A stretch of 39,634 nucleotides of DNA from a virus, in IMG/VR virus record IMGVR_UViG_3300036399_001237, positions 1-39,634 of that record; one strand, given 5' to 3'. Positions within the stretch are counted from its first letter, which is position 1. Every line of letters begins with the position of its first letter. The notes below the pieces were generated by a model. It was not told where the DNA came from, did no database searches, and saw only the letters and a list, made by a program, of their open reading frames with translations. Shown piece after piece: positions 4,870 through 31,248 of the stretch. Both the position numbers and the translations under genes were made by a program.

Positions 4870-6941
4870 TGCCCGCCATCCGACTCGCCGACATCCCCAA
4901 CGCAGGCCCGCAAGCCCTCGGGCCATCGACCGGCATCCTCGCCCCGCAAGCCGCGCAACTTGGCCGCGCTGCCATGGTGGACCCCGGCGGAATGCGAAAC
5001 GCCGCGCAGTCGATGCTCACCCAAACACTGGAACTCGATGCTTTCTCGCAAGAAGCCCGCGCCATGGGCAAATTCGCCGACTCCATCGGCGGGCTGGGCG
5101 ATGTCGCCATGAAGTGGGGCCAGAAATTCGCCGAGGCCAAGGACTACGCCGACATCAACCGCGCCGAGACGCTCCTCGCGATTGCCTCTCAAAATCAAAA
5201 AGCCGACCAGGCAACTCTCCCGATGGAAAAGTGGGGCGAGTCACTGGCGCGGAACCAAGAGCAAGCCAAGCGGGCGCTAGCCGAAATCAAATTCAGCAAC
5301 AACGCCGCTGAGAAATTCAAGCCGTATTTAGATAGCTGGACGCTCAAGTCCGAGGTCGCGATGAAAGCAGAATCGCGCATCAAGCAACTGGAACTCGACA
5401 AGACCGATGTCAAAGCCAATGCCCTCCGACTTTCGGCGGAGGGAAATTTTGAGGCTGCTCTTGTAGCTTTCAAAGGTGGGGTGGACAGGGGGCTTTTTGC
5501 CCAAGAGGAATTTGACAAATTCGGAGCCGACATGCGCGACAACGAAATCCGCGCCACCGAAGCCATGCAGACCGACCGGATCACCGCCGACTTGATGACC
5601 GATTACACGGTCGCGAAGCAGAACCTCAACGAATATGTCAAGTCCGCCGGGGACGCGAAAGACGATGCCCGCATCAAGGGTGCCTACGGTGAAATGCCGA
5701 TGAGCAAAGTCCGCCGCTTGATGGCGCAGGTCGATCAGCAAGGCCGGATCACCGAGGCGAACAACTACAACATCCTCGCCCAAGCGATTGATTCCAACAC
5801 CCCGATCCGCGATGCCAACGGGAACGAAATCCTCATCACCGACAAGGACAAACTGGAATCGGCGCTGGCGTCTTACAAGGTCACCGGCACGGAATCCAAG
5901 AAACGGCTGGAGCGGTTAATCAGCGACAATGTGCCGTATGATGCCAAGAAAATCTCCGAAGTGAATGCGCGGTTGGCAACCTACGACCCCTCGATTGACA
6001 CCGACCTCGGCGAATTTGCGACCCTTCAAAACGAAATCGCCGCCAATGTCCCAAAACAACTTCGACCGTTCCTCAACGACCGGCTTGCCCAAGCGGTCAA
6101 AAAATTCAACGCCGATGGGACTCTGAAATCACCAACCGAAAAATGGCAGGGAGACATAATTAACAATGTCCTCAATCTCGGAAAATCGGGACTCCTCGGC
6201 GATCCCGGCACGGAAAAAACATCGTCTGGGATGTATGGAGAAAAGATCACCGATCCGACCAAGAACAACGCCTACTGGTCCGATGTGCTATCTATTCAAA
6301 ATGGGTTGCGCGATTGGTTTGCAAACCCAGCCAACAAAGACAAGACCCCGGCAGATGCGCTTGAATACAGAGATTCGCTGATCAAACCTAAACTCAATGA
6401 TTCAGCAAAGAAACTTTGGGAAGCTCAAAAAACATCTGCGATAACACCCGGCTGGGGGAAGACGATGTATGAGTTAGCAAGCGGAGATGATTTTAAAGCC
6501 AATTTGTCGGGTGATCTTGTTGATTGGGTGAAAAATATGGAAGCAAGACCTACTGAAAAACAAACTGGCAAGTTTACATCGTATCAAGATGGAAAACAAA
6601 TTTCTGTAGGCTATGGAACAAGGTCTTCCAAGTTGGGAGAACAAATATCTGAAAGCGAGGCCGACCGCCGTCTTCGCGAGGAGTTGGCAACTCATGCAAA
6701 AAACATCGATTCAGCAGCTTCTGAAAAAGGATACAAACTTACAAAAGGACAACGCGATGCATTGATTTCTTTTGATTTCAACACGGGAGATGGCGCTAAA
6801 CTTATCAAAACTTCTCAATCATTGGAGGAAATAAAAACCAGAATGCCAAGTTGGAATAAAATTACCAAGGACGGAGTAAAAGTTGAATCAAAAGGACTTA
6901 ACAACCGCAGAAACCAAGAACTTCAAAAGTGGAACAGTTAA
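4869..6941 (+). CDS. ejection protein (gp15-like) with C-terminal GH24 lysozyme domain
   Basis: A 690-aa protein starting in the TAATG overlap, with AAGGAGC upstream. Residues 1-540 are mainly helical, with an N-terminal pattern typical of large internal proteins (IRLADIPNAGPQALGPSTG). From about residue 550 the sequence becomes a T4-type lysozyme (GH24) domain: a candidate catalytic Glu at 558 or 563, SYQDG with Asp574, then SVGYGTR, followed by SESEADRRLREEL and a late GQRDALISFDFNTG core. The usual Thr of the E-D-T triad appears to be Ser. The domain probably opens peptidoglycan during DNA entry. Bases 6400-6940 are clearly more AT-rich than the upstream half, suggesting that the lysozyme part was acquired separately. 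Confidence 0.75.
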   Translation: MPAIRLADIPNAGPQALGPSTGILAPQAAQLGRAAMVDPGGMRNAAQSMLTQTLELDAFSQEARAMGKFADSIGGLGDVAMKWGQKFAEAKDYADINRAETLLAIASQNQKADQATLPMEKWGESLARNQEQAKRALAEIKFSNNAAEKFKPYLDSWTLKSEVAMKAESRIKQLELDKTDVKANALRLSAEGNFEAALVAFKGGVDRGLFAQEEFDKFGADMRDNEIRATEAMQTDRITADLMTDYTVAKQNLNEYVKSAGDAKDDARIKGAYGEMPMSKVRRLMAQVDQQGRITEANNYNILAQAIDSNTPIRDANGNEILITDKDKLESALASYKVTGTESKKRLERLISDNVPYDAKKISEVNARLATYDPSIDTDLGEFATLQNEIAANVPKQLRPFLNDRLAQAVKKFNADGTLKSPTEKWQGDIINNVLNLGKSGLLGDPGTEKTSSGMYGEKITDPTKNNAYWSDVLSIQNGLRDWFANPANKDKTPADALEYRDSLIKPKLNDSAKKLWEAQKTSAITPGWGKTMYELASGDDFKANLSGDLVDWVKNMEARPTEKQTGKFTSYQDGKQISVGYGTRSSKLGEQISESEADRRLREELATHAKNIDSAASEKGYKLTKGQRDALISFDFNTGDGAKLIKTSQSLEEIKTRMPSWNKITKDGVKVESKGLNNRRNQELQKWNS

Positions 6942-9900
6942 TTGACGAACTAATTCCTCGCCGGGATGCCATTTCCGCAGGCGATGAGGAAGACGCTTTT
7001 CGCACTCAATGGCAACAAGAAAGGGAAATGGAGGCGTTCAATGAGAAAGATACGCACTTTTCCAAGTTGTTCACGGATGATGATTATTATCAAGCCGCCA
7101 AAGAAAAAAACTACGCCCTTGCTGAAGCGTTAGACCCGGAAGCGACTGCGAAACGATCTTTGGTCAACGCCTACTTGGAACACCGTCTCGGTCGTGAAAT
7201 TCCTTCGGTCAACTACGAACCCGAGCGTGACGCCTTCGCCATGCAGGCATTCGGCCAGAAAAACCTCAACGATGGTCAACTCTTTGATTACATCCGGGGA
7301 GATTACGATTGGCAGAAGCAACGCACCGAGGCGATCAACGACCTCCAGATGCAGTCCGTGGGCAAAGCGATTGCCGACTCTCAACTCGGCCAGACCCGTC
7401 CCTTCGTGGACGGCATGACCGAGGTCTTCAACCAATGGCAGCAGAAATACCCGGAACTGGTGGACGGCAAGAATGACGCCGCCTTCCTCTCGCAGGGTTA
7501 CAAGCTCTACTACGACACGATCAACGACCTCGACACCGTTCGTCCGCAGGCGTCCAAGGCGCTCTCCACGCTCACCTCGTTCACCCAAGGCAACGCCACC
7601 GACGAGGACATGCAAAGCCTCGCCAACGACTTCGTCGGCGCTCCACCCGAAGACCGCCAGAAAATCTACAAATATGTAACCCTCGCCGCGCAGGCGGGTC
7701 AGATCGACCGCGCCGGGATTGAGCAGTTTGCCATCAACATGGGGCAAGCCTTCACCCGTGGGTTCGACTTCGTCCCGCAGGGAACGCTCCAGATGCAGGA
7801 GGCAGGCGTGAACAACTGGCTAGAGTCCATCCGCAACGGAACGCAAATCTGGGTTCCCGTGGATGGCGATCTCACCAAGGCCGTGGTCGGCAACGCCCCC
7901 GCTGGTGCGGAATCCGATGCATGGCGGCAAGCCACCGTGCCGGAAGCCGAGACACTCATCCAGAGTGGTCACAATGTCCGCGAGTCCTTCAAGGTCGTGC
8001 GCGAACTCCGCAATGTCGCCAAGACCGGCGTCGATCCCATCCGCCCCGTGCTGGAGGAGAAATCCTTTTGGGGAACCGCCGAGCGCGGAGCCTACGGTTT
8101 GTCTGGCAGCATCCCGCTCATGGGCGCGACCGCCGTCAACCCCTACCTCGGCGTCCTCGCCTACCAAGCGACCGAATACGACCGCATCATGCTGGAGAAC
8201 CCGGAAATCAACCCGCAGTTCGCCCAAGGTCTCGCCCTGGTGGAAGGCGCGGCCAATGCCGCCATCGACCGGGTCCAGTTGAGCAGCCTCTCCGGGCGGC
8301 TCCCCATGTTTGGCCGCTACCTCGACCGCATCGCCAGCAATGGCGTCCGCCGCACCGTCAAGATCGGAGCCAATGTCGTGGAGCAGAACTTGCAGGAAGG
8401 CGCTCAAGACCTCATCGCCCCCGTGCTGGAGACCGCCGTCGCCGCCCTCCGCGAGGACATGCCCGACAAGGATTTTGGGAAACTGCTGAACGAATGGGGA
8501 GGTCAGCGGGCCGAAACTTTCTTCGCCACCCTCCCGCTCGCCCTCATCGGCGGTGGAGTCGCCACCTACCGCGACATCAAGAACCCATCCGCCGAACTCA
8601 ACGCCACCAAGCTCCGCATGGCAGGCTTTGGGAAGGATCAAGTCACCTTCATCCAGCGAGCCGAGAATCCAGAGGAATACGATGCCCGCATCCAGATGGA
8701 ATGGGAAAAGCGAACATCGGAAAACATCAAGGCCGGTGAGCAGGAAGTCCTCAACACCATTGAAAAAGCCCGCACTCCCGGAGAACTCGACGCCCGCATA
8801 GAGCGAGTCACCGCGCCCGATGGGTCCGAGGACATCGTCGTCACCTCGCCCGATGGCCGGGAACTCCTCCGCACCAAGAGCGAGCAGGCCGCGCTGGAGG
8901 CCGTGCGTCAGCACAACGAGGCGCAACTCATCAACGAGCGCAATGCCGTCTCCGACATGGTGGACTACTTCCGCGCCCAAGACCCCACCAACGAAGCCAC
9001 CATCGAAGCGCCCCGCACCGTCCAGCAAGAACTCGACCGGCTCACTGAGGCCGGTGATTCCAAAGGCATCGCCAATCTCAACGAGCGCATCCGGTTTGCA
9101 GGCATCCCCGAAGGGTCTGACCTCACCACCTACAACATCCTCGGCGAGGCCAATGTCGAGACGACCGCCGAAGGCGTCTTCCGTGGCGTCATCAAGCTCC
9201 GCGAGAATTCACGCCCGGAGGATGCCTTTGAGGAAATCAACCATGTGTTCGTCCGCAAGGCACTCGCCGAAGGCCGCACCGATCTGGATTCCCTGCGAGG
9301 GTGGCTCAACCAAACCAGCGAGGCCACTGGCGAAACCTATGCCACCGATACCGAGACCGACATCATCGAGAACATCGCCAAGGTCGGCATGGATTACGCA
9401 GCAGGGCGCATCGAAGAGACCTCCCTCCCAGCCTCCTTCGTGGACTACATCAAGCGCATGCTCCAAGTCTTCAAAGAGACCATGGCCCGCGCCATCAAGC
9501 TCAAGGACGCCTTCGCCACCGGCAAGATCGATTCCAACTTTGAATCCTTCCTCGCCGAATCCGTGGGCCTCAACCAGCAGACGATGGTGGACACCACCCG
9601 GGAGCGAGTCGGCGGCGAACTGGCACAAGGCACCTTCAACTACTCGGTTGGTCAACGAGTTTCGACTGATACCAATCCATACCCCATGGAGCAGAAGGGC
9701 AAGTGGTGGGCTAACGAGGATTTCGCCCAGCGTGGCGGGCAGATCGTGACCATGTCGCCCGACGAATTCCTCTCACAGGTTCGACCGCTGGAAGTGGACG
9801 AAGCCTCCCGCGACAACATAGACGACCTCAAAAACATGATGCAGAGCGGGCGCAAGCTCGACCCGCTCGCCATCTACGCCGATGGCAAAGAAGACGGCAG

Positions 9901-12900
9901 GCACCGCGCCACCGCAGCCAAGGAACTCGGCATGGACACCATCCCGGTCCTCGACTTCCGGGCAAACAAGCCGGAACCCAAAGGCAATGATTTCTCCATC
10001 GGCTCCCGCGCCAGCGCAGTTTCGACTGATACTCCCTCAATCCGCGCCAGCAACGCCACGATCACCGGCCCCGCCAACTACAGCATCGGCGCATTCCACG
10101 GAACGCCGCACAAGGTGGACAAGTTCAGCACCGACAAGATCGGCACCGGCGAAGGAGCGCAGGCTTATGGCTGGGGATTGTATTTTGCTCAAGCAAAAGC
10201 GGTTGGAGAAGGATACCGAGATCAACTCGGCGGCATTCGGTTGATGACCGCAGACGGGCAGATGGCGGACAACATTGTGTCTACGCCGGGGGCGAAAAAA
10301 ATACTTAAAGAAGCTCGCGTTTTCTGGAAGCAAACAAAATCGCTTGATGGTTTTGTAAAACAATTGGAGTCATCAAAATCCCAATCAAAGGTTTGGGCAG
10401 CGCAAGGCGATAATGTCGAATCCAACTCGCAATATGTAAAAGATGTAGACGAGGTTTTGTCAGTAATTAAAGACACAACCCCAACCCCAACAGGCAACCT
10501 CTACACCGTAGACCTCGATGTCGAACCGGGAGACCTCCTCGACTGGGACAAGCCGCTGAGCGAACAAAGTCCGAAGGTGAATGCAGCGTTGCAATCGGTT
10601 TCGGACAACTGGTTGTGGCAGGATGCGATTTCTGGAAAAGGTGGAGAGCAGGTTGGTGGGGCATTATACAGCACGCTCCGCGCCACATTTCCCGATGCGG
10701 AGTTTTCACGCGATGGCGTTGACGCTTCAAAGAAAGCCTCCGAAGCCCTCCTCGCCGCAGGCATCCCCGGCATCCGCTACCTCGACGGCGGCAGCCGCTC
10801 GGATGGCCAAGGAACTTACAACTATGTCGCCTTCGACGAGAACCTCATCAAGATCACCGAGGAGAACGGCAACCGCATCCCCGCATCGCAAGCTCTCGCT
10901 CAACCTGTTTCGGCTGATACCAACTACAGCATTGGCATGACGGTCGCCCCGCTGCGCCGAGATTCACTTTCCGAACTCAACAAAAAGGAAATGCAGAAGC
11001 GGGCATCGTCTGCAAAATTCATCCACCTCCAGCAAGTCATCGATGATGTCGCCAATGCGTATGGAGTAAAAATTGAATCCCGCCAGCCGGTCATCGGTGG
11101 ATGGGTTGAAAGTGGGCAGATCAGTCTGGAAGTTCCAGAGGCTATCCTCTTCGACACGGATGACCTTGAGATGGCGCAGGAGATGGCGGCTATCGTCGGA
11201 GCCTCGGCCCCGGAACTGCAAAATGCCGTCATGCTCTGGAAGGATGACGATGCTGGGAAAGATACCGTGCTGGAATTCCAAGCCAAAGGAGCCGACTCGG
11301 CCTTGGCGGTCGCCAAGGATTTGAATGCGGCGGGGCTGAATGGATTCACCTATGACACGAAGAGTCGCAAGTTTTCACTTGTTCTGGCAGGAGTTTCACC
11401 GGAGAGTATTCCCAAGGTTTATGACTTCATCGACCACCATACCAAGCAAGGCAGCATTAGCTCTCGCGGAGGCACTCAAGCGAGATCGGGCGTTGCCGCC
11501 TTCCCATCCGAGAGCGACTATCGAGGATATCTGCAAGGCGCTCGGAGCCGAGCGAATTTACTCCAACAAGGGCAACGCGAAGCCCTCCTCGATGTTGTTG
11601 GTCGGGCGGAACGGCGCGTAGATCGCTACGCCGCTGCTCTGAAGATTTCGGAGCAAGCCAAGAAAATCCAGAAGAAGCTCAAGCGTCCTTCCACTTCGGC
11701 GCTGGCTATCGAGACCGAACTCAAGGGCAAACAGTTCGATAATATCCGCCAGCTTGGGCTATACCTCGACGCCCGGTTCAACAAGGTCTTCGGCAAGCCA
11801 TCATTTGAGATCGGCGGGCAAGAGGGCATCGATATCGCATCGGATGCGTTCGTCTACGATATCATCGACGGGCTGGCCGGTGATGGTTCCGGGATGGGGT
11901 GGTATGACGAAAGAGTGCAGGAGACAATCCGCGAACTCTCCAAACTGCACCCAGAGTTTGCAACGGATTCCAACGCCCTTGCAGTCTACATCGGCATTCT
12001 TGCCACGACATCGCAGGGCTACACGGTTGTCGAAAATTTCAAGCAGGCCAACAAGGTCTACAACGAATACAAACGAACCGGCAGAATCCCGACCAATTTC
12101 AAATTTGCGAAATCTTCGGACCCAATCAACTCCAACCTCGCTCAAATCCAAGGTCTCATCGATGAGCATGGATTAGATGGCTACGCTGAATTCATGGACC
12201 AAGAGGTCACCGGGCAGGCGCTCCGCGACCAGTTCGGGAAAACACCAACCGGCGTGACCCTCAAAGACACGGTGCGCGGCAATCGTGTCCTCGGCCCCAA
12301 GATTGGCAGTTTCTTCAACAACCTGCGCGGGCAGTTCGATACCATCACGATGGACTTGTGGTATACCCGCACGATGCATCGGTTCTTGGGTGAAACGGTT
12401 GTCCCGCTGGATTCCGACAAGATGCAGAAGGCCATCACGAAATTCCGAGAGGAATTGAAAAAGGATGGAGTCCGCACCTATGGGATCGACCTCACAGAGG
12501 CGCTCAAGGACGACGAAGCCACGGTGCAGGCGGCTCTCACGCTTTTCCAACGCTGGGCGCGAGGTGACAATGACTACACCGAAAAGGGATATTTCAAATT
12601 TCCCGATGGATACAAAATAGAGAAAGCCGCTCGCGGAATCTTCAGCATCGGCGGAATGAAGGGCGCTCCTCAGAACAAGACGCACCGGCAGTATTTCGCC
12701 AAGGTGGTTTTGGAGGCAAAAGCCAAACTTGCAAAACTTGGCATGAAGCTCACTGAGGCCGACATGCAGGCCATCATCTGGTATCGCGAGAAAAATCTTT
12801 TTGCCCGCACTGGGGTGGCCAACGCCGCAGCCAAGCCCGCAGACTATTTGGATGCCGTCATGGTTGCACGATCCGGAGCGCAAGTGCAGGAGGATGTAGA

Positions 12901-15900
12901 CCCCGCAGATTTGGAAGCAGAAGACGGAGACACCAACTACTCCATAGCCAGCCAGTCGGAGATCGACCGGGTGAACCGCGCCCTCGGCGGCATGAACCGA
13001 GGCCCGGACGAACGGCTCAAAGTCTACGAGCGGGCGCGGGCGAAGTTCGGGCAACTCTTGGAGTCCAATAAGGAAGCCATTGACGCAATTAAATCGGCCA
13101 AGGAGACCGATACGGCTCCGGCCCTTGAACAGGTCGAAACCGAGCGGGCTTCCAATCTCGCCGATCTCACCGCCGAGGAAAACGCCGAGGTCGCGAAGGC
13201 GCTACAGGACAACGCGGACACCTTCATGCCGCGCATCGAAGCGGCTGCAACGCCCGCCGAGCGCAAGCGTGTCGAGCGCGATGCCAAAGACCGGGCAAAG
13301 ATTTTGGAACAAGGCATCCGGAACAAATTCGACGAGCGCAAAACTGCCATTGATACCAAGGCGAAGTCCCAGAGTCAGCAGATCAAGGACTCCGCTGCCA
13401 ATCGCGATTCGGCATCCCGCGCCCGAATGACCGAGAAGGTTCGCCGCACAAAACTGCTTCAATCCATCGGCGAACTGGATGCCGTGCTTTCAGTCCTTCC
13501 TCCAGAAATTCGCGGCAAGGTGGGGGGCTTTGCCGTGCTGGCCAACATCGGAACAGGCGACAAGGCGCTTTCGGATTTCTTCGTGAAACGCATCGAGATG
13601 ATCGACCGCCAACTGGAACGGACTCTCCGCAAGGAATACGACGCTGCATTCCGAAAACTCCTCGACCGCACCAAGCCGAAAAAAGCCGCGCCCGGAGAAA
13701 AACCCAAGGGCATTGGAGCCGACATCCAAGACCTATTCACCGTGGTCCGCAGCGCCGTGGATATGGATGCCGTCTCGGTCGCCGCCCACATCGCCGGATT
13801 GGATGCCAAGATTGCCAGCGGTGAACTCACCGCCGAGCAGGAAGCCCGGGCGCAGGTCGAGGCCGCGCTCGTTTCGTTGGTTGGCGATTGGCGCAATGCC
13901 GATGCGGACCGCCGCAGGTCGGCGCTCACCGAGGCGACTCGTATTTGGTCTGGTGCCTATGCCGCTCACACGCAAAAAGTCATTCAACTCCGCGAGCAAC
14001 GCGAGGTCGCCCGAATGGGGGCGATCCAAGACACCGGCAAGTCTGGTGAACTCGCAGGCAGAAAATCCAAGGCGATTGCCGACTCCGGTCTCAAGGGAAG
14101 CTGGAAGGATTACATTCTAAACCTGCTCAACTTTGACCAAGTGGCAGGCATCCTTTTCGGAGAAAATAGCGAGACGGCAAACACCCTCATCGACCGCCAG
14201 CGGACCACAGAGAACGCCAAAGAGGACGGGCAGCAGGCAAAGATGCAGGCGCTGGAAGGATTCTTCACCGACCTCGCTGGGGGCAACCTACTCGCGGGTG
14301 AGCAACTCCGCTACAACCTGGCTCAACCCAGCATGGAGGTGCAGGGCATCAAGCTGTCAGAACTGGAAGGTCTATCCGCAGCGATGATGTGGGAGCAAGA
14401 AGATGGGCGCAGGCACATGACCGGCGAACTCGATGAGACCGGCAAGCCCTCCGGGTCGTGGCACTACGACCAAGATTTTGTGGACGACATCATCGCGAAC
14501 CTCTCGCCCGAGGCGCTGCAATTGCGGGATTGGTTGCTCAAGCAATACGCCGACGAATACGGCAACATCAACGCCGTCTATTCCGAACTCAACGGAGTCA
14601 ACCTCCCGCAGATTCGCAACTACTCGCCGGTCACGGTGCAGCCTGTCTCTGCGCCGACCGGGCAGGTTCTCGATCCTGTCAGCGGGTCCGCCATGTCTGG
14701 TGCCAGCACATCCCCGGGGGCGCTACGCACTCGCGGAACCGCCATCGCGGAACCTCGCTTCGCCGATGTCCTGCAAACCTACATTTCCCACACACTCCAG
14801 ATGGAGCATTGGAAATCCTTTGCCCCGTTCATCGCCGAGGTCAATGGAGTCTTGCGGAATCGCGATGTGCAGAATTCGGTCGAGGAAAAAGGCGGGGCCG
14901 AGGCGCGGAAGATTCTCAACGCATGGCTCGACTACTTCGCCCAAGGCGGCACTCGCGATGCCGGGGCGCATCTGGCGCTCAACCAAGGCATCAGCAATGT
15001 GCTGGGTCGTGCTTCGCAGGTCGCCCTCATCGGTCGCGTGTCCACGCTTCTTGTGCAGTCCACGCAACTCGGGGCCGCACTGGCAGAGATGCCGCTCAAG
15101 GCATACCTCAAGCGCATGGGGAAACTACTTACCGGGCAACTCGGCTGGGATGCTTCAATCAACTCACCATACATCCAACGCCGGATCGCACAGATGCCGC
15201 CGGTCGTGCAGATGGCCATGCAGGGACTCAAGGGTGCGAAGCCCACCGCCATCCAGCAAGCAGGCAAGCGGCTCGGCAACCTGCTCTCCGGTGCGGACGG
15301 GTTATTCACCGCAGGCACCTATGCGATCACCTACGACTACCACCTCACCAAAGCGCAGGAACTTGGCTTGACCGGCGCGGAAGCGGAATCCTATGCGCGG
15401 AACATCGCCGAGCGGGTCACCGACCGCATCGCGCAGCCGACACGCCCCGGAGCGCGGAGTCTTTACGAAAACACATCCACCAACCCGCTGGCCCGCGCCG
15501 GATGGGCATTCGCTTCTGAGGCGAGAAAAAACCTCGCGCTCGTCGCCTATTCCTTCGCCGAGCGGGACACCGCGACCAAGATGCGGACGCTGGCTTATGT
15601 GGTGGCGATCAATTCCATTGCCTCGTCAATTCTGCGATCCATCTGGCGCGACATGCTCGATGACGATGACGAAGAACTATTCGACGACAAGTATTGGTCG
15701 CCGAAACGCATCGCAATTGCGGCTGCGACCGAACCGCTTTACGGGTTCCCAGTCCTCGGATCGACAGCACAAAATGCCATTTACAGAGCATTCGGAGAGT
15801 ATCAACCGGGCGGAACCATGTTCGATGTGGATCGAGCAATTAACCCGGTCAGGCGAATCCCCGAATATCTGGAAGGCGATTTCGAGATGCGCGATGTCAT

Positions 15901-16036
15901 TCGCGACATCGACATGATCGTGTCGGCCATGGGACTTGCCCACCCCAACATCGCAGCCGCCGCATCCATCACTCACCTCGCCAAAGACCTATTCAACATC
16001 GGCGACTCTGCGGTGGACGCAGTAACCGAGGACTGA
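6929..16036 (+). CDS. giant polyvalent ejection protein (T7 gp16 position): ParB-like, ART-like and DUF7178-like domains
   Basis: A 3035-aa protein starting at GTG 6929, overlapping the lysozyme gene by 13 bases. By position it replaces the large ejection protein of T7-like phages. Visible parts: residues 1-900, helical, with a hydrophobic glycine-rich stretch near 380-430 and an EEINHVF motif at 768-774 that may be a decayed zincin metallopeptidase; 937-1013, a ParB/sulfiredoxin-like domain with DGRHR at 989-993; 1052-1325, an ADP-ribosyltransferase-like domain of the polyvalent-protein type (FHGTP at 1056, YGWGLYFA at 1080, GIRYLDGGSRSDGQGTYNYV near its end); about 1650-1990, a DUF7178-like region (GWYDERVQETIREL, GPKIGSFFNNLRGQFDTITM); 2005-3035, a helical C-terminal region resembling domains common at the ends of large polyvalent proteins. 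Short motifs NYSVG (904), DFSIG (1021), NYSIG (1050, 1332) and NYSIA (2003) sit at every domain junction. Bases 10160-10500 are AT-rich inside the ART domain. Such proteins are thought to be injected with the DNA to act on the host. Confidence 0.85.
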   Translation: MEQLIDELIPRRDAISAGDEEDAFRTQWQQEREMEAFNEKDTHFSKLFTDDDYYQAAKEKNYALAEALDPEATAKRSLVNAYLEHRLGREIPSVNYEPERDAFAMQAFGQKNLNDGQLFDYIRGDYDWQKQRTEAINDLQMQSVGKAIADSQLGQTRPFVDGMTEVFNQWQQKYPELVDGKNDAAFLSQGYKLYYDTINDLDTVRPQASKALSTLTSFTQGNATDEDMQSLANDFVGAPPEDRQKIYKYVTLAAQAGQIDRAGIEQFAINMGQAFTRGFDFVPQGTLQMQEAGVNNWLESIRNGTQIWVPVDGDLTKAVVGNAPAGAESDAWRQATVPEAETLIQSGHNVRESFKVVRELRNVAKTGVDPIRPVLEEKSFWGTAERGAYGLSGSIPLMGATAVNPYLGVLAYQATEYDRIMLENPEINPQFAQGLALVEGAANAAIDRVQLSSLSGRLPMFGRYLDRIASNGVRRTVKIGANVVEQNLQEGAQDLIAPVLETAVAALREDMPDKDFGKLLNEWGGQRAETFFATLPLALIGGGVATYRDIKNPSAELNATKLRMAGFGKDQVTFIQRAENPEEYDARIQMEWEKRTSENIKAGEQEVLNTIEKARTPGELDARIERVTAPDGSEDIVVTSPDGRELLRTKSEQAALEAVRQHNEAQLINERNAVSDMVDYFRAQDPTNEATIEAPRTVQQELDRLTEAGDSKGIANLNERIRFAGIPEGSDLTTYNILGEANVETTAEGVFRGVIKLRENSRPEDAFEEINHVFVRKALAEGRTDLDSLRGWLNQTSEATGETYATDTETDIIENIAKVGMDYAAGRIEETSLPASFVDYIKRMLQVFKETMARAIKLKDAFATGKIDSNFESFLAESVGLNQQTMVDTTRERVGGELAQGTFNYSVGQRVSTDTNPYPMEQKGKWWANEDFAQRGGQIVTMSPDEFLSQVRPLEVDEASRDNIDDLKNMMQSGRKLDPLAIYADGKEDGRHRATAAKELGMDTIPVLDFRANKPEPKGNDFSIGSRASAVSTDTPSIRASNATITGPANYSIGAFHGTPHKVDKFSTDKIGTGEGAQAYGWGLYFAQAKAVGEGYRDQLGGIRLMTADGQMADNIVSTPGAKKILKEARVFWKQTKSLDGFVKQLESSKSQSKVWAAQGDNVESNSQYVKDVDEVLSVIKDTTPTPTGNLYTVDLDVEPGDLLDWDKPLSEQSPKVNAALQSVSDNWLWQDAISGKGGEQVGGALYSTLRATFPDAEFSRDGVDASKKASEALLAAGIPGIRYLDGGSRSDGQGTYNYVAFDENLIKITEENGNRIPASQALAQPVSADTNYSIGMTVAPLRRDSLSELNKKEMQKRASSAKFIHLQQVIDDVANAYGVKIESRQPVIGGWVESGQISLEVPEAILFDTDDLEMAQEMAAIVGASAPELQNAVMLWKDDDAGKDTVLEFQAKGADSALAVAKDLNAAGLNGFTYDTKSRKFSLVLAGVSPESIPKVYDFIDHHTKQGSISSRGGTQARSGVAAFPSESDYRGYLQGARSRANLLQQGQREALLDVVGRAERRVDRYAAALKISEQAKKIQKKLKRPSTSALAIETELKGKQFDNIRQLGLYLDARFNKVFGKPSFEIGGQEGIDIASDAFVYDIIDGLAGDGSGMGWYDERVQETIRELSKLHPEFATDSNALAVYIGILATTSQGYTVVENFKQANKVYNEYKRTGRIPTNFKFAKSSDPINSNLAQIQGLIDEHGLDGYAEFMDQEVTGQALRDQFGKTPTGVTLKDTVRGNRVLGPKIGSFFNNLRGQFDTITMDLWYTRTMHRFLGETVVPLDSDKMQKAITKFREELKKDGVRTYGIDLTEALKDDEATVQAALTLFQRWARGDNDYTEKGYFKFPDGYKIEKAARGIFSIGGMKGAPQNKTHRQYFAKVVLEAKAKLAKLGMKLTEADMQAIIWYREKNLFARTGVANAAAKPADYLDAVMVARSGAQVQEDVDPADLEAEDGDTNYSIASQSEIDRVNRALGGMNRGPDERLKVYERARAKFGQLLESNKEAIDAIKSAKETDTAPALEQVETERASNLADLTAEENAEVAKALQDNADTFMPRIEAAATPAERKRVERDAKDRAKILEQGIRNKFDERKTAIDTKAKSQSQQIKDSAANRDSASRARMTEKVRRTKLLQSIGELDAVLSVLPPEIRGKVGGFAVLANIGTGDKALSDFFVKRIEMIDRQLERTLRKEYDAAFRKLLDRTKPKKAAPGEKPKGIGADIQDLFTVVRSAVDMDAVSVAAHIAGLDAKIASGELTAEQEARAQVEAALVSLVGDWRNADADRRRSALTEATRIWSGAYAAHTQKVIQLREQREVARMGAIQDTGKSGELAGRKSKAIADSGLKGSWKDYILNLLNFDQVAGILFGENSETANTLIDRQRTTENAKEDGQQAKMQALEGFFTDLAGGNLLAGEQLRYNLAQPSMEVQGIKLSELEGLSAAMMWEQEDGRRHMTGELDETGKPSGSWHYDQDFVDDIIANLSPEALQLRDWLLKQYADEYGNINAVYSELNGVNLPQIRNYSPVTVQPVSAPTGQVLDPVSGSAMSGASTSPGALRTRGTAIAEPRFADVLQTYISHTLQMEHWKSFAPFIAEVNGVLRNRDVQNSVEEKGGAEARKILNAWLDYFAQGGTRDAGAHLALNQGISNVLGRASQVALIGRVSTLLVQSTQLGAALAEMPLKAYLKRMGKLLTGQLGWDASINSPYIQRRIAQMPPVVQMAMQGLKGAKPTAIQQAGKRLGNLLSGADGLFTAGTYAITYDYHLTKAQELGLTGAEAESYARNIAERVTDRIAQPTRPGARSLYENTSTNPLARAGWAFASEARKNLALVAYSFAERDTATKMRTLAYVVAINSIASSILRSIWRDMLDDDDEELFDDKYWSPKRIAIAAATEPLYGFPVLGSTAQNAIYRAFGEYQPGGTMFDVDRAINPVRRIPEYLEGDFEMRDVIRDIDMIVSAMGLAHPNIAAAASITHLAKDLFNIGDSAVDAVTED
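9660..9674 (+). repeat. dispersed repeat, in-frame copy 1
   Basis: TTTCGACTGATACCA, read in frame as VSTDT at residues 911-915 of the polyvalent protein. It lies 3 residues after the NYSVG linker, exactly between the N-terminal region and the ParB-like domain. Confidence 0.85.
10020..10034 (+). repeat. dispersed repeat, in-frame copy 2
   Basis: TTTCGACTGATACTC, matching the consensus for 13 bases and read as VSTDT. It lies just after the DFSIG linker and before NYSIG, between the ParB-like and ADP-ribosyltransferase-like domains. Confidence 0.75.
10908..10922 (+). repeat. dispersed repeat, in-frame copy 3
   Basis: TTTCGGCTGATACCA, read as VSADT and fused directly to the NYSIG linker (VSADTNYSIG). 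It marks the end of the ADP-ribosyltransferase-like domain and the start of the next region. Confidence 0.85.
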
Positions 16037-16245: not shown

Positions 16246-16490
16246 CCCCGGGCCGGATCGCCGCAGGGATGATCATGCTGGGCTGGATTTTCCTCGCCCT
16301 CGCATTCCTTACATCCTGCGTGAGCGTTCCGATCCCGCCATTCGGCGACCGAGTCGGCGAGATGGGCAACCTGCAACTCAGCGTCAGCGTCAAATACCTG
16401 CCGGCGCAAAATCCCGATCTCCCGAAAGACGACAACCTGTCCTATGCCTGGTCGAAATTCGGCGAGGTAAAAGCCCTCAAAGACAAATGA
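16242..16490 (+). CDS. lipoprotein of the lysis cassette (candidate outer-membrane spanin)
   Basis: An 82-aa protein with a hydrophobic N-terminal segment (residues 8-24) ending in the lipobox LTSC, with Cys at about residue 26. Export and lipidation at that Cys are well supported. The mature part (VSVPIPPFGDRVGEMG, then LQLSVSVKYLP) has no recognised domain. Placed between a holin-like gene and an endolysin gene, it may act like an Rz1-type spanin that fuses the two membranes at lysis, which would imply a Gram-negative host. No partner Rz gene is seen, so it could instead be a single-gene spanin or an unrelated lipoprotein. Both its start and its stop overlap neighbouring genes. Confidence 0.6.
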   Translation: MTPGRIAAGMIMLGWIFLALAFLTSCVSVPIPPFGDRVGEMGNLQLSVSVKYLPAQNPDLPKDDNLSYAWSKFGEVKALKDK

Positions 16491-17032
16491 CCAAACTCCT
16501 CGCCGAAATCGCCGCCGCCGAAGTCGGAATCCGCGAGGAAGGCGGCAACAACAACGGATCCAAAATCCGCGACTACCAAAAGGCCACCGACCTCAAGCCA
16601 GCATCGTGGCCATGGTGCGCTGCGTTCGTTGATTGGTGCATCCGCGAGTGGCTCGCCCGCCCCGGCGTCCGCGACTGGCTCAACCTCCAATCCTCAACGC
16701 CGGAAGAGTGGCGACCAAAGACCGCGCTCGCCTACGGTTTCATCGGCTGGGCGAAGTCCCGCCCCAAGACCTCAGTCATCCTCCACGACCGAGACCTCGC
16801 CCAACCCGGCGACATTGTGGTTTTCGATTTCAGTCATGTCGGAATCGTCGAGTCTGATTCCGGCCACCAGATCATCACCATCGAAGGAAACACCAATGGG
16901 CGCGGAGATCGTGATTCCGAATCCGGCGACGGCGTCTGGCGCAAAGCCCGCCAGAAGACAATCGCTCGGAATTTCATCCGAATCCGGCCTGTCTTGGCAC
17001 TTTCTGGCACCGCTTCTGTAAGTCGTTCCTAG
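16487..17032 (+). CDS. endolysin, CHAP-domain peptidoglycan hydrolase
   Basis: A 181-aa protein starting in an ATGA overlap. The N-terminal half reads AAAEVGIREEGGNNNGSKI, then WPWCAAFVDWCI with the probable nucleophile Cys44. Later come DLAQPGDIVVFDF and SHVGIVE with His117, then IEGNTN. This Cys-His(-Asn) layout is the CHAP amidase/endopeptidase fold, which cuts peptide bonds or the amide bond of peptidoglycan. No signal peptide is visible, so release probably depends on the holin. The last codons contain one pair of TGGCAC sites (16994-17011) that I read as the left integrase arm of attP. Confidence 0.85.
   Translation: MTKLLAEIAAAEVGIREEGGNNNGSKIRDYQKATDLKPASWPWCAAFVDWCIREWLARPGVRDWLNLQSSTPEEWRPKTALAYGFIGWAKSRPKTSVILHDRDLAQPGDIVVFDFSHVGIVESDSGHQIITIEGNTNGRGDRDSESGDGVWRKARQKTIARNFIRIRPVLALSGTASVSRS
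16994..17011 (+). promoter_or_regulatory. int: candidate left arm-type integrase sites of attP
   Basis: Two TGGCAC copies (16995-17000 and 17005-17010) start exactly 10 bp apart, one helical turn. The same pair with the same spacing lies on the other side of the attP core at 17214-17231. Paired, evenly spaced short repeats on both sides of the core are typical of arm sites for the integrase N-terminal domain. They lie inside the end of the endolysin gene. Binding is inferred. Confidence 0.55.
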
Positions 17033-17042
17033 TCAGTAGCCG

Positions 17043-17103
17043 TTTCTCGACTCGAAATCGAACGCAGGGCAACCTGCCGTGGGTTCAAATCCCACCCCTT
17101 CCG
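17043..17103 (+). other. attP core: 3' part of tRNA-Ser(CGA)
   Basis: The bases fold as the 3' portion of a serine tRNA: anticodon loop CTCGAAA (anticodon CGA) at 17051-17057, a 3' anticodon strand, a long variable arm (stem GCAGG/CCTGC, 17064-17077), T-arm GTGGG-TTCAAAT-CCCAC (17079-17095), 3' acceptor strand CCCTTCC and discriminator G at 17103. No D-arm or 5' acceptor strand lies upstream, so this is not a working tRNA gene. A tRNA 3' end directly upstream of a tyrosine integrase is the classic attP arrangement, in which integration rebuilds the host tRNA. The host acceptor 5' strand should read GGAAGGG. Confidence 0.85.
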
Positions 17104-17213
17104 CTCCTCCAGTAAAGCCTCTGAAGCCTTTTCCCAAGCGGGTCTCCGGTCACCCCTCATCTTTTGCTTCGTGTTTTTTTCTGTTGCGTGGTTTTGCTTT
17201 TGAGGGGATGTTT

Positions 17214-17231
17214 TTGGCACTAGTTGGCACT
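17214..17231 (+). promoter_or_regulatory. int: candidate right arm-type integrase sites of attP
   Basis: Two direct TTGGCACT copies start at 17214 and 17224, 10 bp apart, with an inverted TGCCAA just after (17235-17240). They mirror the pair at 16994-17011 across the core. They lie 26 bp upstream of the integrase start, so integrase bound here could repress its own gene. The 17104-17213 interval also contains an inverted repeat CCCCTCA/TGAGGGG and a T-rich stretch, but no gene. Confidence 0.55.
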
Positions 17232-17256
17232 GACTGCCAAAACACCAACCAACAGA

Positions 17257-18255
17257 ATGAAACACAATCCCTATGCGGTGCGGTTTGAAGATTCGCGAAA
17301 TCGATGGGTGCTTGATCTCAAAGCATCCCATTTCGGGGATCGGAAACGGATGTTTTTTGAGACCGAGTTGGAGGCCCATTCGGAGGGGGCGCGGTTGGTG
17401 GATGTGTTGCGCGAGAAGGGGCGCGAGGGAGTGAGGAGCGAGGAGGGCGGGATGTCGGTGGCGGTGGCGACCCGGATGTTCGCAGCGGAGAACGCGACCA
17501 AATCGAAGTCGCATTTCGCGAAGGTCGAGATGTTGTGCAAGGAATTGAATGCCCGCTGGGCTGGGCCGGTCGCGGCGATCGAGCCGGTGGCGCTGACTCG
17601 GTGGCTTAACCAGACCTCGGATTCGCCGACCACCCGGGCGATGTGGTTTCGCTATGCGCGGATGTTTTTCCGCTGGGCTGCGAGGATGAGGTTCATCGAG
17701 AGGTCGCCTGTCGAGGGGATGCGGAGTCCGAAGGCGACCCCGGCGCGGAACATTTTGACGGCTTCGCAAATGAAGGAACTGCTCAAAGCTCCGATGCAGG
17801 ATGATGTGAAGGCGCTGGTGCTGCTAGGCGGGTTTGCGGGACTGCGGACGATTGAAGTCGCAAGGATGAATTGGGAGGATGTGGATTTTAAGTCGAAGCA
17901 AATCCATATTCGGCCCGAGGTCAGCAAACAGACCACGGGGATGCTGGAGCGAGTCGTAGACATGACCGAGCCGCTGGTGAAACGGAGGGAGTTTTTTAAG
18001 GGCAAAAAAGGTGTGATCGTGAAAGGATCGCTGGAGGCGTTGCATGAGGCGCGGCGGCGCGTGGCGCTTGGGATTGGCTGGGAGGGCTGGCCAGAGAATG
18101 CGCTGCGGCATTCGTTCGCGACTTACCATCTCGGGCGCTGCGGTAATGCGGGGCTGACCGCTTACCAGATGGGCCACACCTCGCCAGCGATGGTGCAGCG
18201 GGTCTATGCGGTTCCCGCCGTGCGGGCTGATTGGAAGGCGTTCTGGAGGATTTGA
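17257..18255 (+). CDS. int: tyrosine integrase
   Basis: A 332-aa site-specific recombinase. The start at ATG 17257 is preferred over an in-frame TTG at 17224, which would lie inside the arm sites. Residues 1-70 form a small arm-binding-like domain, about 75-160 the core-binding domain, and 165-332 the catalytic domain. Visible active-site residues are Arg197 (AGLRTIEVARMNWEDVD), Arg284 (NALRHSFATYHL), His307 (MGHTSP) and nucleophile Tyr317 (QRVYAV). The usual His of box II (HxLR) is Asn281. The gene lies directly downstream of the attP core, as expected for integration into tRNA-Ser. This makes the phage temperate. Confidence 0.9.
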   Translation: MKHNPYAVRFEDSRNRWVLDLKASHFGDRKRMFFETELEAHSEGARLVDVLREKGREGVRSEEGGMSVAVATRMFAAENATKSKSHFAKVEMLCKELNARWAGPVAAIEPVALTRWLNQTSDSPTTRAMWFRYARMFFRWAARMRFIERSPVEGMRSPKATPARNILTASQMKELLKAPMQDDVKALVLLGGFAGLRTIEVARMNWEDVDFKSKQIHIRPEVSKQTTGMLERVVDMTEPLVKRREFFKGKKGVIVKGSLEALHEARRRVALGIGWEGWPENALRHSFATYHLGRCGNAGLTAYQMGHTSPAMVQRVYAVPAVRADWKAFWRI

Positions 18256-19041: not shown

Positions 19042-19220
19042 TGAAAACCAACATTTCGATCACTCTTGATAAGGGTTTAATAAACCAACTTGAACAACTG
19101 GCAAAAGCGGAGGATCGGTCGCTTTCCTACATTTTGCGACTGGCAGGCCGCAGTTATCTTGAAAGGTTTAATAAACCAGAACAGATCGAAACCAAAGCAA
19201 CCAAAAGGAAGGCGGCGTGA
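19041..19220 (+). CDS. ribbon-helix-helix regulator 2
   Basis: A 59-aa protein starting at the ATG of the TAATG overlap and ending at TGA 19218-19220. The N-terminus KTNISITLDKGLINQLEQLA is a typical strand followed by helix A; EDRSLSYILRLAGRSYLE forms helix B. The tail is basic (KATKRKAA). Its own coding sequence holds two copies of the operator-like palindrome (GGGTTTAATAAACCA at 19073 and AGGTTTAATAAACCA at 19164). The protein may therefore bind within its own gene, or the two RHH proteins may share sites. Its stop overlaps a GTG start (GTGA) of the HTH gene. Confidence 0.7.
   Translation: MKTNISITLDKGLINQLEQLAKAEDRSLSYILRLAGRSYLERFNKPEQIETKATKRKAA
19073..19087 (+). promoter_or_regulatory. 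operator-like palindrome 2 (inside RHH gene 2)
   Basis: GGGTTTAATAAACCA, one mismatch from a perfect palindrome and nearly identical to 18829-18843. It encodes KGLINQ in RHH gene 2, so protein constraint cannot be excluded. Confidence 0.5.
19165..19177 (+). promoter_or_regulatory. operator-like palindrome 3 (inside RHH gene 2)
   Basis: GGTTTAATAAACC is the third copy of the same palindrome, 92 bp after the second. It encodes part of RFNKP in RHH gene 2. Confidence 0.5.
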
Positions 19221-19426
19221 GCGCGAAACTTCTTATGACGGTCGCCGAGGCGGCGTCAATGACCGGATACGCGCCGTGGACGATTCGGCAGTTTTGCAAC
19301 AAGGGGATGTTTACCGCCGAGAAGCCCCGTGGCGACCGTGGCGGCTGGCGCATCCTTCGGCCCTCGCTGGAGAAGTGGTGGTCGGACAAGCGCCGTGCAT
19401 CGCTCAACACCCGGAGGGTCGCGTAA
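19217..19426 (+). CDS. excisionase-like HTH DNA-binding protein
   Basis: A 69-aa protein with a GTG start in a GTGA overlap. The sequence LLMTVAEAASMTGYAPWTIR, then QFCNKGMFTAEKPRGDRG, then GWRILRPSLEKWW matches the MerR-like winged helix (HTH_17) used by excisionases and small phage regulators. Given an integrase upstream, a directionality factor that favours excision is the natural reading, but a transcriptional role is equally possible. The C-terminus is basic (SDKRRASLNTRRVA). Confidence 0.7.
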   Translation: MSAKLLMTVAEAASMTGYAPWTIRQFCNKGMFTAEKPRGDRGGWRILRPSLEKWWSDKRRASLNTRRVA

Positions 19427-31177: not shown

Positions 31178-31248
31178 TGCGGGGTAGTGAAGAGGCATCA
31201 CACCAGTTTCATAATCTGGAATCCCGAGTTCGATTCTCGGCCCCGCTA
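31178..31248 (+). tRNA. tRNA with CAT anticodon (Met or Ile2 type), atypical acceptor
   Basis: The cloverleaf is readable: 5' acceptor TGCGGGG, TA at positions 8-9, D-arm GTGA-AGAGGCA-TCAC, anticodon arm CCAG(T) with loop TTCATAA (anticodon CAT), T-arm CCGAG-TTCGATT-CTCGG, 3' acceptor CCCCGCT, then A at 31248. Six acceptor pairs form but the 1-72 pair is T-T, and the last anticodon-stem pair is also T-T. The CCA end is not encoded. It lacks the three G-C pairs of an initiator tRNA, so elongator Met or lysidine-modified Ile is more likely. It lies in the scaffold-capsid gap, directly before a dispersed repeat. Confidence 0.7.

Follow-up and report, generated by a model that had tools for sequence, protein, structure and literature searches.

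The region upstream of the integrase gene in this viral genome is, with a probability that we put at about 0.94, an attP: the attachment site of the phage, used by a tyrosine integrase of the lambda-Int (arm-binding) type that acts at a tRNA-Ser(CGA) gene. Our analysis establishes the anatomy of the site, its conservation, the host tRNA, the presence of prophage relatives at that tRNA, and a coupled change of the arm sites and the N-terminal domain of the integrase. It is this co-switching that stands out, as a whole protein domain and four DNA sites differ between integrases that are otherwise nearly identical.

RESULTS

The window, by which we mean the whole stretch of DNA analyzed, is the entire viral record of 39,634 bases (39.6 kb), and all coordinates refer to it. 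The record is that of a podovirus-like temperate phage with freshwater Verrucomicrobia as hosts, and the phage genes identified encode a head-tail connector (PF12236), a terminase, a DnaB-type helicase, a tail protein, an internal virion protein, and endolysins. For the 10 kb surrounding the site, annotated phages gave no DNA match, and a protein-level comparison with the same phages gave weak matches only, to integrases of Akkermansia and Helicobacter phages. One open reading frame of 3,035 amino acids (positions 6929 to 16036) precedes the lysis genes; its C-terminal part is 53 to 75% identical in relatives. A tRNA-Met(CAT) gene lies among the structural genes at 31178 to 31248; it is identical at 71 of 71 bases in 4 of 10 related phage records and 80% identical in a fifth.

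Paired repeats flank a tRNA-derived core

The original prediction placed two pairs of TGGCAC, each with 10-bp spacing, on either side of a tRNA core, the right one just before int, and both pairs are where it put them. All features of the site lie on the plus strand. The P arm consists of two direct TGGCAC sites, 10 bp apart from start to start (16995 to 17010, with starts at 16995 and 17005), within the last codons of a CHAP-domain endolysin gene (16487 to 17032; PF05257, E = 3.3e-9; phrog endolysin; listed open reading frame). The P' arm repeats this arrangement at 17215 to 17230 (starts at 17215 and 17225), 27 to 42 bp upstream of the int start codon, leaving 26 bp between the end of the pair and the ATG at 17257; a search of the P' region for a sigma-70 consensus promoter found none. 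The window has exactly two copies of the pattern TGGCACNNNNTGGCAC, at these two places and only around the tRNA-like core, and 100 dinucleotide shuffles of the window gave no match. Since TGGCAC by itself is not enriched in the window (19 observed versus 21 expected), the signal lies in pairing and placement.

The core between the arms (17046 to 17103) corresponds to the 3' part of a tRNA-Ser(CGA) gene; it starts with the 5' strand of the anticodon stem and runs through to the discriminator base. The prediction of such a core ending at base 17103 held, while its proposed start at 17043 did not, as identity to host tRNAs begins at 17046. When the 5' half of a host tRNA is joined to the 3' half in the window, ARAGORN calls a tRNA-Ser(CGA). 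The anticodon stem-loop spans 17046 to 17062, and in all alleles the identity of phage and host tRNAs has its left edge at the anticodon stem. This edge, together with the known class of such tRNA sites (PMC4383910), makes it probable that strands are exchanged in the 7-base anticodon loop, CTCGAAA within a CGA/TCG stem (17051 to 17057), which would then be the 7-bp overlap region. The core is present once per record in all 17 records tested, as expected of an attP.

Directly after the tRNA 3' end is a hairpin (17107 to 17132) that is terminator-like in most relatives, strongly so in a sister clade with a tRNA-Leu core (−21 kcal/mol) and less in the tRNA-Ser clade (−8.8 kcal/mol in relatives). 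In the window a mismatch breaks the stem (−1.9 kcal/mol), and shuffles match the pattern at a background of 34%. We therefore note the terminator after the tRNA only in passing.

The host gene is a tRNA-Ser(CGA) of Verrucomicrobiota

A degenerate core pattern was searched against a collection of 84,980 genomes (GTDB). An intact tRNA-Ser(CGA) gene, reading GGAAGGGTGGCTGAG... with the 5' end GGAAGGG, is present on all 33 matching contigs, in agreement with the attB that had been predicted. The contig titles are all from Verrucomicrobiota, mostly Spartobacteria, Chthoniobacterales, Terrimicrobiaceae, or plain Verrucomicrobia, and two of them are labeled Akkermansia muciniphila. A similar tRNA gene was found in 182 of 213 genomes of the order searched. 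The attP alleles of relatives vary in the variable arm and T stem and nevertheless remain tRNA-like, and 3 of the 12 attP alleles listed match a host allele exactly, each of the three being that of a relative. The exact tRNA allele of the window is absent from the host genomes of the collection, the nearest having 5 mismatches in 56 bases, so the host species of this particular phage is absent from the collection as well. In the literature searched, we did not find the tRNA-Ser(CGA) of Chthoniobacterales described as an integration target.

The integrase has a predicted lambda-like N-terminal domain

The gene following the P' arm encodes a tyrosine integrase of 332 amino acids (17257 to 18255; PF00589, E = 2.8e-10; phrog_1), with an arm-binding-like domain at residues 1 to 54, a core-binding domain at about 65 to 145, and a catalytic domain at about 165 to 332. 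The catalytic residues are R197, K224, N281, R284, H307, and Y317; among 28 aligned sequences, R197, K224, R284, and Y317 are invariant and H307 is nearly so. Catalytic box II of tyrosine integrases usually has a His (HxxR). At this position the integrase has Asn281 (18097 to 18099), which is invariant in the same 28 sequences and which we take to correspond to His308 of lambda Int.

An AlphaFold model (pLDDT, 87; 28 aligned sequences) predicts strands at residues 6 to 11, 16 to 21, and 30 to 34 and a helix at 37 to 54 (beta-beta-beta-alpha), and Foldseek matched the model to full-length lambda Int (1z1b) and Tn1549 Int. Residues 1 to 54 are thus modeled as a three-strand-plus-helix domain resembling that of lambda Int. 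The N-terminal domain of lambda integrase binds arm sites. More generally, arm-binding domains are a hallmark of the integrases of mobile elements (PMC8138268).

Arm words change together with the N-terminal domain

Among viral contigs we found 40 loci related to int, and an alignment search added further integrase relatives, mostly 42 to 60% identical. Conservation of the TGGCAC pairs, on which the prediction could have failed, was seen at the same offsets in all 20 close relatives where the region is present (one contig, L012, ends before the left pair), and a different word, GGACAAC, is found where the N-terminal domain differs. In relatives with 57 to 87% identity over the matched part of the integrase, both sides of the core bear GGACAAC pairs instead; one copy is degenerate in a few of them. 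A blind repeat finder, to which no words were supplied, recovered the same word twice on the left and twice on the right in most loci.

In L020, L021, and L022, the integrases are 42% identical to that of the window over residues 1 to 62 and 88 to 97% identical over residues 63 to 332, and GGACAAC stands at all four arm sites. The int DNA of L020 follows suit, with 52% identity in the N-terminal part and 86 to 94% in each 30-codon block downstream. For 29 pairs of integrases that are 90 to 97% identical elsewhere, which are not independent of one another, N-terminal identity averaged 93% where the arm word was the same and 42% where it differed. L179, L182, L184, and L185 carry the tRNA-Leu core. 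A second switch was found in the sister clade at tRNA-Leu, where all four sites change by one base from TGGCACAA to TGCCACA; the second predicted strand reads W-K-L-D/S or W-K-V-S in the TGGCACAA integrases versus W-V-L-T in the TGCCACA ones. Trees of the 62 N-terminal residues resolve few forks and do not settle how many arm-word changes occurred (with GGACAAC held together, AU P = 0.58). Because the TGGCAC repeats are conserved, switch with the N-terminal domain, and accompany a domain modeled as lambda-Int-like, they are very probably arm-type integrase sites. Our literature searches on the specificity of arm binding, and on chimeric integrases that have arm-type sites, returned nothing.

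Integrated relatives occupy tRNA genes

In no viral contig was the core joined to the tRNA 5' half tested, so no prophage junction was found among viral records, and junctions were then sought in bacterial genomes. In genome G041, the attL (C2:1995970) consists of an intact tRNA-Ser(CGA), after which come a GGACACA pair and an integrase with 47% identity to that of the window. The attR (C3:754204) holds a second core copy, identical over 61 bp, with a GGACACA/AGACACA pair and phage early genes before it and host metabolic genes after it. The two junctions are on different contigs, and since each contig holds a T7-like prophage and the two have 3.9 kb in common at 90% identity, they look as if they had crossed over between two prophages, one located at tRNA-Ser and the other at tRNA-Asn. 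In a second genome, G218, an integrase 54% identical adjoins an intact tRNA-Ser(CGA), with a GGACAAT pair; here only the attL is seen. These two prophage relatives support the predicted integration at tRNA-Ser(CGA). More distant relatives adjoin genes for tRNA-Leu, -Arg, and -Asn, in most cases with a repeat pair of their own right before int. G218 itself has seven related integrases, and the six for which upstream regions were read all adjoin tRNA sequences, each with an arm pair of its own (GGACAAT, GGACAAC, GGGCCAC, GGGCTAC, GGGCAAT, and GGGCACC/GGACACC).

Downstream of int, the window encodes a candidate excisionase or directionality factor of 69 amino acids with an HTH_17 domain (19217 to 19426; phrog_66 "excisionase," E = 2.6e-7; PF12728, E = 1.8e-6). 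Homologues are found in L107 and L111 and adjoining the attR of G041 on contig C3.

DISCUSSION

Our findings suggest a mechanism in which the N-terminal beta-sheet domain of the integrase would grip both TGGCAC pairs, as P and P' arms, while its core-binding and catalytic domains would act on the anticodon arm within the tRNA-Ser(CGA) core. Strands would probably be exchanged across the 7-base anticodon loop, and integration would join the 5' half of the host tRNA to the 3' half from the phage, thereby restoring a working tRNA and leaving int directly downstream of it in the same direction. The displaced 3' half of the host tRNA would go to attR. The 69-residue HTH protein may be used as excisionase, and the integrase may repress its own gene by way of the P' sites.

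The evidence on the repeats also bears on other ways of reading the region. The TGGCAC pairs might serve another DNA-binding protein, either an excisionase/HTH protein or a repressor, or be operators of the int promoter, with the integrase using the core only. An HTH protein is indeed encoded nearby and the right pair lies upstream of int, where an operator would sit, but the same word flanks the core left and right, and the left pair is inside the endolysin gene, far from any obvious promoter. As the word moreover changes with the N-terminal domain of the integrase while the remainder of the protein stays 88 to 97% identical, we consider this explanation very improbable. We find it hardly credible that the core is a relic, either a tRNA-derived satellite or a captured fragment, at which the phage no longer integrates. 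Such a relic would fit the missing window allele in the collection and the lack of viral contigs with the tested 5' half joined to the core. A core that varies while staying tRNA-like, with three alleles that equal host alleles, points instead to one that keeps up with living hosts. The int gene, too, is intact and conserved, and prophage relatives occupy the tRNA-Ser(CGA) site.

A more serious question is whether arms and domain change together because one cognate pair is recognized or because they share the ancestry of a single DNA block. The P arm, core, P' arm, and int codons 1 to 62 are contiguous over about 450 bp, so a single exchange would move the arms and the domain together, and the number of switches is left unsettled by the trees. 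Yet the repeat words and the domain are specific to their class while the number of sites and their approximate spacing are kept, the tRNA-Leu clade shows a second switch of arms and domain through a one-base change at four sites, and the same link between arm and domain is known from Cluster K mycobacteriophages (PMC3203893). Shared ancestry alone therefore seems to us unlikely, and we favor recognition of each arm word by its own N-terminal domain. One may speculate further that the arm word and the domain make up an exchangeable specificity module, and that its diversification lets several related prophages in one cell, such as those of G218 with their different arm pairs, ignore each other's att sites, a suggestion that we make tentatively and would sooner doubt than defend. 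If it were true, the approximately ten arm words and their domains could make an arm-recognition code readable, for example from the contrast of W-K-L-D/S or W-K-V-S with W-V-L-T.

These integrases lend themselves to a natural comparison, since between proteins that are otherwise near-identical the arm-binding domain differs along with all four DNA sites, and the many matched pairs of domain and site in the family could allow arm-site recognition to be read. In addition, the attachment site assigns an uncultured group of freshwater phages to hosts, namely Verrucomicrobiota of the Chthoniobacterales type, and supplies an integration site that can be used in bacteria for which genetic tools are scarce.

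The layout of this attP has close precedents. As in lambda Int and its attP, the integrase has arm-binding, core-binding, and catalytic domains, and direct arm sites one helical turn apart enclose the core. The window differs from lambda in having two-plus-two direct pairs, its long arm on the int side, and a core inside a tRNA anticodon arm, and no IHF or Xis sites were identified in its attP. Similar in arrangement are mycobacteriophages CrimD, Giles, and L5, in which repeat pairs surround the core and a stem-loop terminator lies between the core and the right pair (PMC3203893). The Cluster K1 attP (CrimD) has two 11-bp repeat pairs flanking a tmRNA core upstream of int; its right pair is inverted, while that of L5 and Giles is direct, as it is in the window (PMC3203893). 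In Cluster K, the arm words vary with integrase N-terminal residues 17 and 19 (PMC3203893), whereas the words described here are far more different, the whole N-terminal domain differs, and the hosts belong to another phylum.

The identity from anticodon arm to tRNA 3' end, with the tRNA predicted to be restored on integration, resembles that of the anticodon-loop (type A) tRNA sites described with Islander (PMC4383910). The arrangement also resembles intS/attL of KplE1 at argW, where tRNA and int are codirectional and attL overlaps the int upstream region (PMC2951348). In KplE1, experiments showed that integrase bound at P' can repress int (PMC2951348). Because tRNA and int are codirectional here too and P' lies upstream of int, as for KplE1 IntS, such repression is to be expected; by this precedent and by position, autoregulation of int is plausible, having been observed experimentally in KplE1 (PMC2951348) and being predicted for the phage in the window.
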